Source: a virus. From it: DNA of 25,522 nt. Position numbers and translations under genes: made by a program. Location: positions 1 through 25,522 of IMG/VR virus record IMGVR_UViG_3300027759_000382; one strand, written 5' to 3'. Positions 1 to 23,100 of this stretch are shown piece by piece (position 1 is the stretch's first letter; the number at the start of each line of letters is the position of its first letter). The notes beneath the pieces were generated by a model. The model ran no database searches. It was not told the DNA's origin and was given only the letters and a program-made list of their open reading frames with translations.

Positions 1-1181
1 ATAACAAAGGTTGTGTGTATATTCCAACCGGAGGAGGCAAAACAGTAGTAATGAAAGAGGACATCAAACAACGGTTGTTGAATGCAACTGAACCAATGAC
101 TGTTGTAGTTGTTGCTCCTCGTATTCTTCTTGCTAATCAACTCTGCTCCGAGTTTGAAGAGTATCTTGGTGAGTTTGATATTGTGTATATGCACGTTCAT
201 AGTGGTGAAACTCATCACGTTTCTTCTACAAAACCAGATGTGATTGTGGAGCAGAATGGACTTGCACTTACATTTGGTAAGCATAACTTCATCTTCACCA
301 CCTATAACTCTTTGGGTCGTGTGAATGATGCTAAAATCAGTGTGGATGTTGTTTATTTTGATGAAGCACACCATTGTGTGAAACCAAGCAACTTTGTTGG
401 TATTGCTCACACTTCCAAGTATGCTGAGAATGCTTATTTCTTCACGGCAACTCCCAAGTTCAACAACTCACAAGAGTCAATGAATAATACTGCTGTGTAT
501 GGAGAGAAAATCATCTCTATTCCAGCACAAGAATTGATTGATGCTGGTAGTATCATTCCTCCTCGTATTCATACTTACGAAGCAAAGACTATTCGCACCA
601 AAGAAAATGCTGCTTATGTGGATGCAGAGAACATTATTGGTATTCTCAATGAGATGGATGATGATAGTTTCCCCAAAGTTCTTGTTGCTGCTCCTAGCAC
701 AAAAGTAATTTGGGATATGTTCACTGAAAGTGATTTGCTACAACAACTCAATGATATGGGTTTTGCTGTGCTTCACGTTACATCCAAGCACGGTGCTTAT
801 GTGAATAAGAAGAAAGTCAGTCGTGAGGAATTCTTTGAGATTATGACCGAGTTTGGCAATGATCCTCAACAAAAGTTCATTGTGTTTCATTATTCCATCC
901 TTTCCGAAGGAATGAACATTCACGGACTTACTGATTGTATTATGCTGCGTAATCTTCCTGTGATTGAGATGGCACAAACAATTGGTAGGATTATCCGTAT
1001 GAACAAGGATGACCGTAAGGATATTCAAGATGGTAAGATTGCTGCTGGTCAGTTTTCACTTTATCGCAAACCATTCGGCACTATCACTGTTCCTGTGCAA
1101 AACAACTATGGTGATAAGATTGCTCGGCAACTTGAGAACGTGGTGAATGCTATTTTTGTGAAAGGAGAGTTGTGTGTATAG
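1..1181 (+). CDS. SF2 DEAH-box helicase, UvsW/ResIII-like (5' partial)
   Basis: This is the 3' part of an ATP-dependent nucleic-acid helicase or translocase; the start lies before the window. The reading frame is open from base 3, so the GTG at 15 is only an internal Val codon. Visible motifs in order are Walker A PTGGGKT (24-44), the DEAH box in YFDEAHH (around 360-371), motif III as TAT in FFTATP, and motif VI as QTIGRIIR (975-998). The roughly 390 residues after Walker A fit a two-RecA-domain SF2 core such as T4 UvsW, which unwinds branched DNA during recombination-dependent replication. No nuclease or methylase domain is visible in this part. The SF2 assignment is secure. UvsW versus another ResIII-type phage helicase cannot be settled from the sequence alone. 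Confidence 0.9.
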   Translation, partial: NKGCVYIPTGGGKTVVMKEDIKQRLLNATEPMTVVVVAPRILLANQLCSEFEEYLGEFDIVYMHVHSGETHHVSSTKPDVIVEQNGLALTFGKHNFIFTTYNSLGRVNDAKISVDVVYFDEAHHCVKPSNFVGIAHTSKYAENAYFFTATPKFNNSQESMNNTAVYGEKIISIPAQELIDAGSIIPPRIHTYEAKTIRTKENAAYVDAENIIGILNEMDDDSFPKVLVAAPSTKVIWDMFTESDLLQQLNDMGFAVLHVTSKHGAYVNKKKVSREEFFEIMTEFGNDPQQKFIVFHYSILSEGMNIHGLTDCIMLRNLPVIEMAQTIGRIIRMNKDDRKDIQDGKIAAGQFSLYRKPFGTITVPVQNNYGDKIARQLENVVNAIFVKGELCV

Positions 1182-5984: not shown

Positions 5985-6725
5985 ATGTTCCAATTCGCAG
6001 AAGTTGGCGGAGCAGTCCGAGACAAGTTTCTTGGTGTAGATTCCAAGGATGTTGATTTCGTTGCTATTCCCAGAAACCTTGAGTTTCATCGTAGTGCCGA
6101 AGATGCCTTCAATAATCTTGTAAGGCATCTAAAATGGTGTGGTTTCAAAGTATTCTTGGAAACTCCTGAGTTCTTCACTGTTCGGGCACAAGTCCCTGAT
6201 GGTCATCCACTGAAAGAACGCACTACTGTTGCTGATTTCGTGCTTGCCCGTAAGGATGGTCCGAGTAGTGATGGTCGTCGTCCTGATTTTGTTCTACCTG
6301 GAACTCTGATGGATGATTTGCAACGACGGGATTTTACTGTTAATGCAATGGCAATTCTGGATGATGAACTGATTGACCCATTTGGTGGTCGTGAAGACCT
6401 TGATAACCGTCTTATTCGGTTTGTGGGTAATCCTAATGACCGCATTGCAGAAGATGGTCTAAGGGTTATGCGAGCACTGAGGTTTGTTGTAACCAAAAGT
6501 GGGTTTACTCTTGAACGGGAAACTTTTCGGGCAATCAATAGCAATTTTGCTGCTGAAATGCTAATGAAAGTTTCTGTTGAGCGTATTCGGGAAGAATTGG
6601 AAAAAATGTTTTCCGCAGATAGTGTGGGAACTATGAAACTTCTTTTTCAAGTTTTTTCTCTTAATTCTTTACAAGATGCCATCTTCCGTGATGGTTTGCG
6701 TCTGATGCCAACTCTCAAAAAGTAA
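5985..6725 (+). CDS. CCA-adding-type tRNA nucleotidyltransferase, head domain
   Basis: A 246-residue class II nucleotidyltransferase of the poly(A) polymerase/CCA-adding family, which adds nucleotides to RNA 3' ends. Motifs in order: GGAVRDKFLG (residues 8-17), the metal-binding DVD (Asp22, Asp24), RRDFTVNAMA (114-123) with the base-selection Arg/Asp, DPFGGREDL (131-139) and RIAEDGLRVMRALRF (153-167). All key residues of the catalytic head and neck are present. Cellular enzymes are about 400 residues long, so the body and tail regions that clamp the tRNA are largely missing. No tRNA gene was found in this window. It may mend host or phage tRNAs or act on other RNA. Confidence 0.88.
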   Translation: MFQFAEVGGAVRDKFLGVDSKDVDFVAIPRNLEFHRSAEDAFNNLVRHLKWCGFKVFLETPEFFTVRAQVPDGHPLKERTTVADFVLARKDGPSSDGRRPDFVLPGTLMDDLQRRDFTVNAMAILDDELIDPFGGREDLDNRLIRFVGNPNDRIAEDGLRVMRALRFVVTKSGFTLERETFRAINSNFAAEMLMKVSVERIREELEKMFSADSVGTMKLLFQVFSLNSLQDAIFRDGLRLMPTLKK

Positions 6726-11832: not shown

Positions 11833-12208
11833 GACTATTTCTCTACTCTATTCCTTATGCTCATAAGCATAGATTATCAATTAGAACACAATTACGTTAT
11901 ATTTCATAATTAAATTAAATGTATTAAAGAATGTATATGCGTGTTTTGTGTGGTGCTATATATTAGTTACTTTATAGTGTGTTAGGTCTTCTAATTCATG
12001 TGTTAACACTTCATAAAGGTCTTGATTTTTATGGGTCTAGGCCCGCAGTCTACCATGATTCGCAGAAATTGTCAAGCACCTCACAGACCCTTATAGGACT
12101 GGCACAGCACATCTTGACAAAAAACCTAGTGTTTATAATACTTTTGAAGGACATTATAGTTATGTCCCGAAACCCCCCCTAAATAACCCTAGTTTCGGGA
12201 CAAAACTA
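11833..12208. other. non-coding stretch with hairpins and cassette fragments
   Basis: No credible gene. It holds a small hairpin TATGCT-CATA-AGCATA (11856-11871), the palindrome GTGTTAACAC (around 12000), and scrambled cassette pieces (CACAGACCC and ACTGGCACAG near 12083-12106). A TTGACA (12114-12119) and TATAAT (12134-12139) stand only 14 bases apart. The large inverted repeat at 12164-12201 closes it. The AT-rich first half shows nothing else. Confidence 0.6.
12164..12201 (+). promoter_or_regulatory. perfect 10-bp inverted repeat before a small gene
   Basis: GTCCCGAAAC (12164-12173) and GTTTCGGGAC (12192-12201) are perfect complements separated by 18 bases that include a C7 run. The repeat is 25 bases downstream of a TATAAT and ends eight bases before the ATG at 12209. 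It could be an operator for the encoded protein or an RNA hairpin at its start. Confidence 0.65.
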
Positions 12209-12373
12209 ATGAGGCCCCAAAAGTATAAGAATCTAGGACCAACGGAAAGAATGAGAGTGCCTTTATACCGACAGATTACGATTTTATGTGATGTATTAGA
12301 CAGAAAGGCAGAAGAAGGTTATGATGCCGTTGAGTTATTAGATTCATTTATTGAGGATATAAGCAGTCGTTAA
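12209..12373 (+). CDS. ribbon-helix-helix-like small DNA-binding protein
   Basis: A 54-residue basic-then-acidic protein. Residues 12-24 (TERMRVPLYRQIT) look like an N-terminal strand plus helix, then ILCDVLDRKAEEGYDAVELL and SFIEDI. This is the pattern of small CopG/Arc-like proteins in cyanobacteria and their phages, and parallels the 1210-1374 product (RVP-x-Y...LD...LL-x-x-FI). It stands alone in a non-coding region, with a perfect inverted repeat just upstream and three phased direct repeats starting ten bases after its stop. That is the usual neighbourhood of an autoregulated DNA-binding protein. The fold is inferred by eye. Confidence 0.55.
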   Translation: MRPQKYKNLGPTERMRVPLYRQITILCDVLDRKAEEGYDAVELLDSFIEDISSR

Positions 12374-12381
12374 TACAAAAC

Positions 12382-12444
12382 CTGTGGAAAACTTATAAGA
12401 AACTGTGGAAAACTATTCAAAACTTGTGGAAAACTATTCGGTAT
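12382..12444 (+). repeat. three 21-bp direct repeats containing DnaA-box-like TTTTCCACA
   Basis: TGTGGAAAA occurs at 12383-12391, 12404-12412 and 12425-12433, exactly 21 bases apart, within longer similar units (CTGTGGAAAACT). The complement, TTTTCCACA, fits the TTWTNCACA DnaA-box consensus and is the form usually given for cyanobacteria. Two helical turns of spacing place all three on one face of the DNA. Confidence 0.85.
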
Positions 12445-12542
12445 ACATAAGAGTTCGTTATAGCAGTTCGTCATACAGCACAGTATAAGCATATGTTCGT
12501 TATAGTATGTGAGAGTATGACAATACAACAGTCCCTCAATTA

Positions 12543-12766
12543 GGACACCCCCCATACAGTTTGCTATTCTGTTCGTCCTGTGCTATAATATTCGTTGTAC
12601 ACAGTACTGTGTACTAACCTATAACCCCACTATCTTATAACTCATACACACTTCGTCCTTATTGCATACCCCCCGTATAGTTTCGTTATTTGAATCTGAC
12701 AGTGTTACATAAGCACTTATATCGTCCTCTTCGTTATATTGGACACCCCCCATATAGTTCGTTATA
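12543..12766 (+). repeat. three copies of a C6-tract unit
   Basis: Units begin near 12543 (GGACACCCCCCATACAGTTT), 12664 (GCATACCCCCCGTATAGTTT) and 12741 (GGACACCCCCCATATAGTTC), each continuing into a TTCGT-like or TTTGCT sequence. Spacings are 121 and 77 bases. Isolated C7 runs also occur at 12173 and 12877. Confidence 0.75.
12561..12614 (+). promoter_or_regulatory. sigma-70-like promoter with 18-bp palindrome at the start site
   Basis: TTGCTA (12561-12566), 17 bases, TATAAT (12584-12589). The perfect palindrome GTACACAGTACTGTGTAC (12597-12614) begins where transcription should start. No ORF follows for over 400 bases, so it would make a leader or non-coding RNA, or be controlled by a dimeric repressor. 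Confidence 0.6.
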
Positions 12767-12953
12767 ACAACACACAGTACTGAATATAAGTATTCGTCAT
12801 TGTTCGTCTATTCTTATTAAACAGCACTGTTTGACAGTTATATATTGTGTTGTTGTATTCTTATACCTAACCGATGCCCCCCCTAAAGCTAAAAAGGCAA
12901 ACTACCCTAACCTACAAACCTTTGAAAGCGTCCGAGGGATTATGAATAAAAAT

Positions 12954-12979
12954 AAAAAAATTTTCCTAAAAATTTTTTT
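12954..12979. repeat. A/T-only inverted repeat in AT-rich tract
   Basis: A7T4, CCTA, A4T7: a perfect 11-bp arm on each side. It contains no G or C in the stem, so it is a poor terminator but an easily melted or bent DNA element. Confidence 0.6.
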
Positions 12980-13032
12980 GGTAAAAGGTTAAAATGCTAT
13001 ATAAAAACAAAAGGTAAAATTGCATAAGAGTT

Positions 13033-13358: not shown

Positions 13359-13382
13359 ATCAAATGTACGGTGAAAAATTTT

Positions 13383-14132
13383 ATGGCTAAAGGATTTACG
13401 GTTAAGACAGTAGCACCTAAAGTAACATCAGAGAATGATTTTAATTTAGAGGCAGCAAAAGAAATGATTCGTGGAAAGTCTGTGGTATTTTGTTTACCAG
13501 GACGAGGAGTATCTTACACGTATTTGAAGAACTTTGTACAATTATGTTTTGATTTAGTACAGAGTGGAGCAAGTATTCAGATTTCACAAGATTATTCAAG
13601 TATGGTTAATTTTGCGAGATGTAAGGTACTTGGAGCAAATGTATTAAGGGGACCAAAGCAAGTTCCATGGGATGGAAAGTTGCAGTATGATTATCAGTTA
13701 TGGATTGATAGTGATATTGTATTTGATACAGAGAAGTTTTATCGTCTTGTAGCAATGGATAAAGATATTGCTGCTGGTTGGTATATGACCGAAGACGGTC
13801 ACACCACATCTGTTGCACATTGGTTAGAGGAAGATGATTTCAGAACTAATGGTGGAGTCATGAATCATGAGAATGGTGATACGATGAGCAAACGTCGCAA
13901 ACCATTTACAGTTGATTACACAGGATTTGGATGGGTATTGATTAAGAAGGGAGTATTTGAGAGTTTGGAGTATCCTTGGTTTGCACCAAAGATGCAACAA
14001 TTTGAGAGTGGTGAAGTACAGGACATGTGTGGCGAGGATGTCTCATTCTGTCTTGATGCGAAGGATGCTGGATTTGAGATTTGGTGTGATCCAAGAATTC
14101 GTGTTGGACACGAGAAGATGCGAATTATTTGA
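13383..14132 (+). CDS. GT-A type glycosyltransferase
   Basis: A 249-residue enzyme likely to transfer a sugar from a nucleotide-sugar donor. FCLPGRGVSYTYLKNFVQLC (36-55) starts the Rossmann-like half. YSSMVNFARCKVLGANVLRG (71-90) resembles the region before the metal site. LWIDSDIVF contains the DxD metal-binding motif (Asp109, Asp111). GFGWVLIKKGVFE (181-193), CGEDVSFC (216-223) and VGHEK (241-245) complete the acceptor half. The ATG at 13383 is preferred to an in-frame GTG at 13371. Similar genes precede baseplate or neck genes in T4-like cyanophages and may modify virion proteins or DNA; the substrate is unknown. A strong hairpin terminator follows. Confidence 0.78.
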   Translation: MAKGFTVKTVAPKVTSENDFNLEAAKEMIRGKSVVFCLPGRGVSYTYLKNFVQLCFDLVQSGASIQISQDYSSMVNFARCKVLGANVLRGPKQVPWDGKLQYDYQLWIDSDIVFDTEKFYRLVAMDKDIAAGWYMTEDGHTTSVAHWLEEDDFRTNGGVMNHENGDTMSKRRKPFTVDYTGFGWVLIKKGVFESLEYPWFAPKMQQFESGEVQDMCGEDVSFCLDAKDAGFEIWCDPRIRVGHEKMRII

Positions 14133-14824: not shown

Positions 14825-15226
14825 ATGGCAGTAACAATTTCTCGTAGTTTTAAGGACATTAGTTTGTCTTTTGCGAGGCATCCAGTTACGAATGATGTGA
14901 TTGCACTCAAAAATGAGGACGCAATTAAAAAATCTGTTATAAATTTGGTCAGAACTCGTCTTGGTGAAAGATTTTTTAATGATTTGTTGGGAACATCAGT
15001 AGAAAATTCAATGTTTGAGTTGCAAAATTCAGGCATAAGTTCATTTTTACAAGAAGAAATTACATCATTGTTGAATAATTTTGAACCTAGAATAAAATTG
15101 AGAACTGTTTTTATTGACGAACCAGAAGATACAAATGATTTAAACATCAATATTTCTTATGATATTGTTGGGTTACCATTTCCGACACAAAATATAGAAT
15201 TCATCTTACAACCAACAAGAGTATAA
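14825..15226 (+). CDS. 25: baseplate wedge protein gp25
   Basis: A 133-residue protein, nearly the length of T4 gp25 (132). It begins MAVTISRSFKDISLSFARHP, followed by NDVIALKNEDAIKKSVINLV and RTRLGERFFNDLLGTSVENS, the characteristic gp25-like (lysozyme-fold, non-enzymatic) core. gp25 joins the baseplate wedge to the central hub and sheath in contractile tails, and is conserved in T6SS (TssE). The stop overlaps the gp6 start (TAATG), so both are translationally coupled. Confidence 0.93.
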   Translation: MAVTISRSFKDISLSFARHPVTNDVIALKNEDAIKKSVINLVRTRLGERFFNDLLGTSVENSMFELQNSGISSFLQEEITSLLNNFEPRIKLRTVFIDEPEDTNDLNINISYDIVGLPFPTQNIEFILQPTRV

Positions 15227-17112
15227 TGTCCTTCAATCAGTTTACAAATTTAGATTTTAATGATTTAAGAACTCAGATTAAAGATTATCTGAGAGCAAAT
15301 CCCAATTTTACTGATTTTGACTTTGAAGGATCCAATTTTTCAGTTTTAATTGATCTTCTTGCTTATAATAGTTACATTACATCATATAATACTAATATGG
15401 CTATCAATGAGTCATTCATTGATAGCTCCACATTAAGAGAAAATGTAGTTTCTTTGGCAAGAAATATTGGTTATGTGCCAAGATCTGTTAAATCTGCAAA
15501 AGCAAAGATTAGTTTTAGCGTAGATGTTAGTAATATTAATACAAGATTAGTAAAATTAAATGCTGGCGTAGTTGCTTTAGGGTCAGTTCAAGGTGGAAAC
15601 TATATTTTTTCAATTCCAGAGGACATTTCTGTTACTCCAGATGGTAATGGGATTGCAACATTTAATAATGTTGAGATTTATGAAGGGACATTTTTAAGAA
15701 AGACGTTTAATGTAGATAATTCACAAGGAAATGCAAAATATATCTTACCAAATGCAAATATTGACACTTCAACAGTTAGAGTTTCTGTTACTGGCACCAC
15801 AACAGAAAATTATGAGCTCTATACAAATATTTTTACAGTAGAATCAAACTCAAAAATCTTTTTAATTCAAGAAATTGATGATGAAAAGTATCAAATTTTG
15901 TTTGGTGATAACACTTTTGGCAAAAATCCAGAAAATGGTAGTACAATTACCGCGTCATACATTGTAACAAACGGAATTGATGGTAATGGTAGTGCAAATT
16001 TCACATTTTCTGGTAATTTATCCTATGTAGAGAACGGAATTGATAAACCAGTTACTTCTGGCATATCTCTTCTTACTACCCTACAATCGTCCGAAAACGG
16101 AGATGGTATTGAATCCATAGATACGATCAAATATCTTGCTCCAAGGGTCTACGCATCGCAATACAGGGCAGTTACGTCCAATGATTATACGAGTCTAATT
16201 CCATTTTTATACTCAAATGTTGATTCGGTGAGTGCATATGGTGGAGAAGAACTTGATCCTCCACAATATGGTAAAGTTTACATTACAATTAAACCAAAAA
16301 ATGGTGAAATTCTCTCCGATGTTACAAAAAATTCAATCAAAAATAATTTAAAAAAGTATACAGTAGCAGGAATTAAACAAGAATTTATTGATTTAAAATA
16401 TTTGTACGTAGAATATGATTCAACAGTATCATATGATCCAAGTTTTGTATCAAATAAAGAAAATTTATACACAAGAATACAATCAACGATTAATTTGTAT
16501 TCAAAATCTTCCGATATTAACTCATTTGGTGGAAGAATTAAATATAGTAAGATGATTTCATTAATTGATAACGTAGACAAGGGTATAACTTCAAATATTA
16601 CTCTTTTAAAAATGAGAAGAAATCTTTCTCCTGCATATAATGTGCTTGCCAATTATGAATTATGTTTTGTGAATAAATTTCACGCAGATATCTATGGATT
16701 CAACATCCGTTCAACATCATTTAGAATAAGTGGAGTGGATGGTGATGTTTATTTGACTGATCTTCCAGATGATCCTACAGGAAAAAAAGGAAAAATTAAA
16801 TTTTTTACCTTAATTAATGGATCTCCAAACTTTATTAATGATAATGCAGGAGCAGTAAACTATGAAAGAGGAGAAATTATATTATATCCTTTAACTATTA
16901 CATCCACATCATCTTCTGTTGGAATTGAAGTTGAAGTTATTCCAGATTCAAATGACATTATTGCAAAAGAAAATCTTTATATTGTTCTAGATACTACAAG
17001 TAATAGTTTACTAAATCTTATAGAAGATCCCATATCTTCTGGGTCCAACAAATCTGGAAATTCCTACGTTCCACCTTCTAGTTACACAAGCAATAAAAAG
17101 TATACGAGATAA
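15226..17112 (+). CDS. 6: baseplate wedge protein gp6
   Basis: A 628-residue protein, close to T4 gp6 (660). N-terminal SFNQFTNLDFNDLRTQIKDY and SVLIDLLAYNSYITSYNTNM, NESFIDSSTLRENVVSLARN are typical of gp6 (baseplate J-like) proteins, as is LAPRVYASQYRAVTSNDYTS near the middle. gp6 forms the inner ring of the baseplate and dimerises between wedges. The order gp25-gp6-large structural protein is the usual one. The C-terminus is variable with Ser- and Asn-rich repeats. Codon use turns A/T-rich compared with the accessory block. Confidence 0.93.
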   Translation: MSFNQFTNLDFNDLRTQIKDYLRANPNFTDFDFEGSNFSVLIDLLAYNSYITSYNTNMAINESFIDSSTLRENVVSLARNIGYVPRSVKSAKAKISFSVDVSNINTRLVKLNAGVVALGSVQGGNYIFSIPEDISVTPDGNGIATFNNVEIYEGTFLRKTFNVDNSQGNAKYILPNANIDTSTVRVSVTGTTTENYELYTNIFTVESNSKIFLIQEIDDEKYQILFGDNTFGKNPENGSTITASYIVTNGIDGNGSANFTFSGNLSYVENGIDKPVTSGISLLTTLQSSENGDGIESIDTIKYLAPRVYASQYRAVTSNDYTSLIPFLYSNVDSVSAYGGEELDPPQYGKVYITIKPKNGEILSDVTKNSIKNNLKKYTVAGIKQEFIDLKYLYVEYDSTVSYDPSFVSNKENLYTRIQSTINLYSKSSDINSFGGRIKYSKMISLIDNVDKGITSNITLLKMRRNLSPAYNVLANYELCFVNKFHADIYGFNIRSTSFRISGVDGDVYLTDLPDDPTGKKGKIKFFTLINGSPNFINDNAGAVNYERGEIILYPLTITSTSSSVGIEVEVIPDSNDIIAKENLYIVLDTTSNSLLNLIEDPISSGSNKSGNSYVPPSSYTSNKKYTR

Positions 17113-20100: not shown

Positions 20101-23100
20101 ATATTGGAGTAGGAACACATACATTCAATTATCCACCAATAACTGTAAGTATTTTTGGAAATACTGGTATTTCATCAACAACAATTCCGTCATATTATAC
20201 TGCAACTGCATATGCTACTGTGAGTGGTAAAGTTGAAAATGTATTTTTGAGAAAAGGTGGCATTGGTTATGGTGTTGCAAATATCATAAACTTAATAAGA
20301 AGGCCAGAAGTAACTCTTCAAACTGGAAAAAATGCTTCAATTGAAGCAATTGTAAATGATAATGGAGAAATTTCGGATGTTTATATTGTAAACAAAGGAT
20401 CTGAATATACAACTCCACCAATTTTAGAAGTAATTGGTTCTGGAAATTATGCAGAATTGAAAGCAAATATTTCTGGTGGGCAAATAACATCAATTGATAT
20501 CATAAGTGGTGGAAAGGGGTATTCTAAAAATAATACTACAATAAAAGTAACCCCTCGTGGATCTGGCGCATTTTTTAATGCTGAAATTCAAAAATGGTCA
20601 ATAAACGCAGTAGAAAAATATAAAAATATTTTAGAAACAGAAATATATAAAGGAACTTTACAAATTCCATCTGAAGCAAGATTTAAAGAAAATAAAATAG
20701 GTTCATATTATGCAACAAAAGAAATTCGTAAAATTTTAAATGATAATTTAGATGAAAATACATTTGAAGAATTGGATGAACTCAATTCGCACTCACCAAT
20801 TATAGGTTGGGCATATGACGGCAATCCAATTTATGGACCATATGGAAATGCAAAGAGCATTGCAGATTCTTCTGGGACTGGTGGATTGAAAAGGATTGTT
20901 TCGGGATATACATTAGATCCAATTAATGATAATACATTAAGACCATCATATCCAGATGGATATTTTGTTGAAGATTATAATTTTAATGATAGTGGAGATC
21001 TTGATGAGCACAATGGAAGATTTATTGTTAATTCTGATTTTCCAAATGGAACCTATGCTTATTTTTCAACTTTAGATGTAAATAAAAATCCAGTATTTCC
21101 ATATATAACATTTAATCATCACAATGCAACCGATTTATTCAATTATGATGTATTAAAAACTCAATCAGATTCATATTTAAACACAGGAGAATATAAAAGA
21201 AATATTACACCACAGGGAATATCAGAGAAATATAAAAAATATCCTTTCTTTGATGATAATTTTAATTCTAATGTTGATTTGGAAGTAATTCTTACAAAAA
21301 AATCTGGAATTTCTACAATTAGTATCAAAAATGGTGGTTTTGATTATAAAGTTGGAGATGATGTAGTATTTTCAAATGCTCCAAATGTTAATTCCAGCGT
21401 AAAGGAAGTTTTAGGAAAAAATATTGTATCAATTGCATCTTCTGAAATTACAAATAACAATCTTGTATTTTCATTTTTAGATAAAAAAGTTACTGCATTC
21501 AGCACAATTCCTCACAATTTTGTAGATGGAGACATTGTTGAAATTTCTGGAATTTCATCGGCATTATACAAAAATACAGAAGGGTTAAAAACAATTGAAG
21601 TTTCGGCAATAGTTGCATCACTATCCGTTTCTATTGGAAACACAAGCACTACTGGAATTACTACATTTATTTCAATTTCAGACCCAACTTCAAATGGTAA
21701 TTTTACACCAAACAATATTATACAGATTGAATCCGAACAATTATTAATTTTGAATCTTGATGATTATAATAACAGATATAGAGTTCAAAGGGCATACAAC
21801 AATACAGTTGGATCAGCACACACAGCAACAAGCCTAGTTCGTTTATTGCCAAAATCATTTACATTTAATAATAATTCATCAATACCATCAAATATTGAAA
21901 CAAATTATTCATATTATTTTAATCCAAATACTTCTATTGGAATTGGCAACAGTTATACTAATGTTATTGTAGCAACTTCTGGAAGTAATGATATTGTAAA
22001 ATCTGTCTCACCAAGATCAATATATTTACCAAATCATAAATTTAATACTGGAGATTTGATTTCTTACACTTCTATAGGTTCTACAATAATTGCATCAAAA
22101 AATAATTCTCTTACTCCAACATTTAGATTAAATGATTTTCAAAATTTATATTGTGTTAAAATTAGTGATGAATATATTGGAATTTCCACAGAAAAAGTTG
22201 GATTTACAACTTCCTATGTTTATTTTGTTTCATATACAGGAACAAATCATAATTTCGAATCCACCAAAAATCAAGTAACAGGGAATTCCAAAAAAGTAAA
22301 TGTTACAGTAACTGTTGACGAATCAATTGATTTGATGGTAGGTGATAATATAAATTTAAATATATTACCAAAATTAAATCAATCTTTTAATTTTAAATTC
22401 AATAACGTTATAAAAAAATTAGTTGTCGATCCAGTTTCATTTGCATCGACAGCAGTTGGTGTTGGAACTGCAAATTCTACAATAACAATTAATAACCATA
22501 ACTATAAAACTGGAGATGTGGTAGTATACACTGCAGCAAATCCAATTACACCTCTTACAAATAATCAAATTTATTATGTCATAAAGACATCAAATTCTTC
22601 TATTAAACTAGCATCAAATTCATACAATGCTTCTAAACTAGATTATGATTATATTGGAATTTCTTCGTATGGATCAGGAACTCACAATTTATCATTAATC
22701 AATCCAAAGTTAACTTTTTATAAAGGAAATAATGTTTCTATAGCAGTATCAGATACTAGTTTGTCTGGATATGATATTAAATTTTATTATGATAATCAGT
22801 TCAAATCAGAATACAATTCAACTTTAATAAGAAAATATGGAACAATTGGAGATTCAAATCCTTCATCAAGAATAAATGTTTCCATTGGTGATTCAATTGA
22901 AAATCAATTCTTTTATAGAATTGAAGGAAAAGATATAAAGTTTACTGATACTTATCCATCATCAACAAATACTGACGTTGAAAATTATTCATTAATAGAA
23001 GTAAAAGAATCAATATATAATGGATCTCATATTATTTCTGGAGTTGGATCAACTTCATTTAATTTTACTTTAGTTGAAGCACCAGAGACAACATCATATA

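Follow-up and report, generated by a model that had tools for sequence, protein, structure and literature searches.

Three exact copies of TTTTCCACA are regularly spaced in a non-coding region of a T4-like cyanophage. They would be binding sites of host DnaA that mark a phage origin of replication, or its control region, in the interval between uvsW and gene 25; we give this reading a probability of about 0.58. The window analysed here is the whole IMG/VR record IMGVR_UViG_3300027759_000382 (25,522 bases), a fragment of a T4-like cyanophage with relatives among Synechococcus and Prochlorococcus phages. DnaA boxes are known elements. Their setting in a T4-like cyanophage is unexpected; textbooks treat the T4-like group as the standard example of replication independent of the host initiator. 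No report of DnaA boxes or of a mapped origin in T4-like cyanophages was found in the open-access literature, subscription papers being mostly outside the search.

All of the three boxes lie on the minus strand and match the consensus exactly: box 1 at 12383–12391 (context AGTTTTCCACAGG), box 2 at 12404–12412 (context AGTTTTCCACAG) and box 3 at 12425–12433 (context AGTTTTCCACAA). Their start-to-start distances are 21 and 21 bp, so that the positions and the spacing given in the original prediction were reproduced exactly. The boxes fit within 51 bp, and a repeat search delimited a direct-repeat array of three 21-bp units at 12373–12435 (minus strand). The 25.5-kb window holds no further exact copy, and copies with at most one mismatch occur in it at the chance rate (16 versus 16.8 expected). 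In Markov-2 simulations, a window held 0.83 exact copies on average, and 0 of 1500 had three of them within 60 bp. The analytic probability of three boxes within 60 bp by chance is about 1.6e-6.

The boxes had also been placed in a non-coding region, and no plausible gene was found across the array. The overlapping 61-aa ORF (12370–12555, minus strand) is merely a mechanical listing. A 54-aa ORF of unknown function (12209–12373, plus strand) has its stop about ten bases before the array, and some 600 bp after the array are devoid of a plausible gene. Just before this ORF, at 12157–12208, a 17-bp near-perfect inverted repeat, TAGTTATGTCCCGAAAC / GTTTCGGGACAAAACTA, surrounds a C-run. A nearby AT-rich element, likewise proposed, was only partly borne out. 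The flanks of the boxes are not unusually AT-rich, but in a stability scan of the neighbourhood the 80-mer with the lowest stability lies about 510 bp from the boxes, at 12941–13020. Only 0.6% of the 80-mers of the window are less stable, and this stretch is a candidate unwinding element.

In the literature, the 9-mer TTTTCCACA is the species-specific cyanobacterial DnaA box, and the interaction of DnaA with the origin has been studied in Cyanothece (PMC4674748; PMC6323995). Direct pairs of this word within 42 bp were present in 45 of 59 cyanobacterial genomes (one class), against 0 for the reversed word, and their spacing is mostly about 21 bp among the matches listed. The dnaN-upstream arrays of small cyanobacterial genomes carry TTTTCCACA or TTATCCACA. 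In two small low-GC cyanobacterial genomes with dnaN at the contig start, the near side, which was read, had only ATTTCCACA variants near dnaN; one of these genomes has two copies 9 bp apart. Judged from the match to the published word and from the spacing of 21–22 bp, the commonest in cellular arrays, the identification of the repeats as DnaA boxes is well supported.

DnaA is encoded in 12 of the 12 cyanobacterial genomes checked. DnaA domain IV, the DnaA-type DNA-binding domain, was not found in 16 phage records. Therefore, the binder is probably the host protein, and a phage-encoded DnaA was rejected on these 16 records. A different phage protein with DnaA-like specificity, as yet unknown, might instead use the boxes as iterons. 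There is a precedent in T4 oriE, which has iterons, and the RepEB protein is implicated in replication; the role of the oriE iterons is unresolved according to the T4 review. However, the phage boxes have the sequence, the flank and the phasing of the host box, and no protein family was identified as co-occurring with the clusters. Together with the missing domain IV, these points make such a protein improbable.

The spacing of the boxes follows the helical turn of DNA. The 54-aa ORF was found in 23 viral contigs; one to three exact boxes stand directly behind it in 17 of them, and the remaining 6 have no boxes there. The spacings in these relatives are 11, 21 or 32 bp, near whole helical turns, so that close relatives do not keep to exactly 21 bp. 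Across the whole set, phage arrays are spaced by 11, 21, 22, 32 and 42 bp, and they preserve the helical phase in the way that cyanobacterial arrays do. Conservation of the spacing in relatives therefore holds for the helical phase and for the genomic place, but not for the exact 21 bp. In free-spacing scans, the commonest same-strand spacing was 21–22 bp; it accounted for 107 of 338 adjacent pairs in bacteria and for 41 of 123 in T4-like phages, with secondary peaks at 11–12, 31–32 and 42 bp. In a pair scan, 53 of 92 spacings among the matches listed fell on helical multiples versus 21 expected. The excess at 21–22 bp is partly present in the control word and is not decisive alone. Because codon periodicity raises the control at 21 bp, the spacings of 22 and 32 bp, which are not multiples of three, were also relied on.

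The gene order of the window defines the place of the array. The left border of the interval is a partial UvsW-like helicase gene (15–1181, plus strand) and the right border is gene 25, which encodes a baseplate wedge protein (14825–15226, plus strand); hence the boxes are enclosed by uvsW on the left and gene 25 on the right. A glycosyltransferase-like gene, phrog_1574 (13371–14132, plus strand), served as the marker for anchoring relatives, and gene 6 (15226–17112) follows gene 25. At 5985–6725 there is a poly(A) polymerase / CCA-adding enzyme-like protein; no structural RNA or tRNA gene was found in the window.

The scan of isolates covered the whole genomes of 24 cyanophages and of T2, and two or more exact boxes within 60 bp counted as a cluster. 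Thirteen clusters were obtained in 10 of the 24 isolates, namely DSL-LC02, DSL-LC03, P-SSM7, S-SM2, P-TIM68, S-CAM22, QB2, ACG-2014d, S-IOM18 and ACG-2014g. Each of the 13 is found upstream, by at most about 8 kb, of gene 25 or the glycosyltransferase gene. A search of relatives for the same cluster at the same place had been proposed as a check, and it confirmed the place: all of the isolate clusters fall in the uvsW–gene 25 interval, uvsW on the left side being located in P-SSM7 and S-SM2 and not in every genome. Repeats scattered genome-wide, which would have spoken against the original prediction, were looked for and not seen, since no cluster occurs outside that interval in the 24 cyanophage genomes. 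Isolated boxes elsewhere are few per genome, a background like that of the reversed word. The P-SSM7 direct pair occupies a 40-bp gap separating two genes, and the clusters are intergenic in DSL-LC02, DSL-LC03 (five boxes in a single cluster) and ACG-2014d. The S-SM2 pair is inside an annotated 34-aa ORF of doubtful reality.

The confinement to one interval bears on a decoy function, by which boxes multiplied with the phage genome would titrate host DnaA and halt new rounds of host chromosome replication, with no phage origin involved. Binding alone would suffice for such a decoy, and the fixed spacing could reflect cooperative binding. A decoy needs no single genomic interval, yet every cluster is in one. 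Furthermore, there are typically just 2–8 boxes per phage genome, although this low number could be multiplied by the phage copy number. The patchy presence of the clusters would suit an accessory function. On balance, a pure decoy appears unlikely, and an origin or its control region remains our preferred reading.

The same place was found in viral contigs. At glycosyltransferase-gene loci chosen regardless of boxes, the box density is 11 per 10 kb in the region 1–1.5 kb upstream of the gene, against 0.06 per 10 kb in the 8 kb that follow it. Among at least 119 contigs fetched solely for a 21-bp pair, at least 68 carry a T4-like cyanophage marker. An unbiased direct-pair scan (gap 3–33) covered at least 98 loci, at least 30 of them with the marker. 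Among the matches listed, 36 of 36 distinct direct pairs on marker contigs were in the conserved interval, recognised by a position downstream of uvsW or upstream of either gene 25 or the glycosyltransferase gene. The reversed-word control gave 0 of 120 loci with a marker among the matches listed. A convergent element, TTTTCCACA-N14-TGTGGAAAA (a 23-bp pair), was found in at least 86 distinct forms, at least 65 of them on marker contigs, and 65 of 65 convergent pairs with a marker, among the matches listed, were in the uvsW–gene 25 interval. Its middle 14 bases vary widely. These direct-pair and convergent-pair contig scans are samples and not totals. Contamination by host chromosomes was rejected, as the contigs hold phage genes and the isolates show the same.

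Three further observations were made on the contigs. The 284-kb IMGVR_UViG_3300027541_000009 has two clusters 210 kb apart, each with its own glycosyltransferase gene and gene 25, and is probably two phages joined during assembly. In IMGVR_UViG_3300035541_000081, five copies of TTTTCCACA stand in an exact 12-bp tandem at 21841–21897. Box arrays also occur on many viral contigs that lack a T4-like marker.

A coding check was carried out on the convergent pair, since chance similarity or a by-product of coding could produce boxes that have no function. In P-SSM7, S-CAM22, S-IOM18 and relatives, the pair does form the end of a small ORF and is read as the peptide FST...VEN. The codons TTT TCC ACA and GTG GAA AAC are invariant there, and the neighbouring codons vary. 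QB2 and ACG-2014g carry this 32-bp element after the stop codon, outside any gene. This convergent double box is a DNA element that has moved in and out of the reading frame among cyanophages. Because it is retained in QB2 and ACG-2014g while non-coding, selection appears to act on the DNA, and the element is independent of coding. The five named phages share an orthologous site and are not fully independent counts. Coding as a full explanation was rejected on the position of the pair behind the stop codon, and chance was rejected by the simulation and the placement controls. Considering also the low probability calculated for the window and the place conserved across many genomes, an origin of the boxes in chance or coding is very improbable.

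Clusters are absent from about half of the 24 isolates. No degenerate cluster was found in the nine intervals that were read in isolates lacking exact boxes; S-SCSM1 and S-CAM4 have one exact box and one near-match each. On a tree of the glycosyltransferase gene with 53 sequences, the cluster label needs 11 changes, at least 5 of them on well supported branches. The DnaA-box cluster is gained and lost often, always within one interval. Therefore, with about half of the isolates lacking it and 5–11 gains or losses on the gene tree, the cluster is dispensable or replaceable.

Directly downstream of the array, a non-coding region at 12440–12900 (plus strand) is conserved in close relatives. TTCGT occurs in it 11 times on the plus strand and 0 times on the minus strand. 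It also carries three CCCCCC-AT repeats and CCCCCCAT(A) repeat units, and its local GC skew falls to about –0.3. A sigma70-like promoter match is located inside it at 12561–12589. Matches of this type, the only promoter type scanned, numbered 11 versus 7.6 in shuffles. Other bacteria are known to use DnaA as a transcription factor, and here it could time the early phage promoters to the cell-cycle or energy state of the host. The conserved promoter-like region beginning just behind the boxes counts against the origin reading to this extent, as it would fit regulation too. However, this TTCGT-rich, promoter-containing region stays in most relatives that lack the boxes, and the clusters of other phages adjoin unrelated small genes. 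We therefore regard transcriptional regulation as quite unlikely, although both it and titration are genuine alternatives to the origin, to which we return.

GC skew had been suggested as a check of the locus, and its outcome was mixed. No genome-wide switch was found in the whole-genome skew, which is uninformative as a proof of an origin. A local rise is present at the locus and is ambiguous. The mean local skew of 190 distinct clusters has slightly negative values as far as 1.5 kb ahead of the cluster and turns clearly positive behind it. This rise is owed largely to the G-rich glycosyltransferase gene and is present where clusters are lacking, too. In 61 phages that lack the glycosyltransferase gene, the change from negative to positive sign is still at the cluster. 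The local skew change gives weak support to an origin.

On the origin reading, host DnaA would bind the helically phased boxes on one face of the DNA early in infection. The bound DnaA would then open or bend nearby DNA, perhaps at 12941–13020, and the opened DNA would admit a helicase for the first rounds of replication, which would start here. Recombination-dependent phage replication would take over later. T4-like phages supply a helicase loader and a primase of their own. DnaA does not appear in the account of origins given by the T4 review. Both points weaken the reading of the array as a DnaA origin.

Taken across the family, a sizeable share of the T4-like cyanophages (Kyanoviridae) might start replication at a host-DnaA-dependent origin in the place of T4 oriF, so that a T4-type replisome would be combined with an oriC-type switch in a module repeatedly gained and lost. 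We put forward this extension tentatively, at somewhat below an even chance. At the least, the sequences suggest that T4-like cyanophages with a host-type box cluster may use or trap host DnaA. The conserved cluster provides a precise origin candidate in the cultured phages P-SSM7, S-SM2, P-TIM68, DSL-LC02 and DSL-LC03. If the reading is true, cyanophage replication would be linked to the host initiator, perhaps also to the physiology of the host, and the locus would show a phage swapping its initiation module while the place stays.

The array was compared with known systems. In a datA-type titration locus, DnaA boxes are concentrated at a site other than the host oriC. The phage array resembles it in this local concentration and differs in being phage-borne at a fixed place. 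Like T4 oriE and plasmid iterons, the phage array consists of direct repeats at even intervals within a region resembling an origin. Unlike them, the phage repeats are the host DnaA box, occur in both orientations and vary in spacing, and the ORFs scanned beside the array gave no PHROGs match to a Rep initiator. The cyanophage array stands between uvsW and gene 25 in the window and in the annotation of P-SSM7 and S-SM2. T-even phages have T4 oriF, which is ori(uvsY) in the T4 review, in the corresponding interval, the T2 gene order being uvsW, uvsY, 25, and promoter matches are near the cyanophage array as well. On the other hand, oriF uses a middle-promoter R-loop (T4 review) and lacks a DnaA-box cluster; the one box of T2 is isolated and lies within gene 26. 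In comparison with the dnaN-adjacent cyanobacterial oriC, the phage array has fewer boxes, no dnaN or dnaA and a patchy presence, and it stands in a lytic T4-like phage beside phage genes, between uvsW and gene 25. With that oriC it nevertheless shares the same 9-mer, a similar flank, AGTTTTCCACAG, the helical spacings of 11, 21, 22, 32 and 42 bp and a mostly intergenic location.
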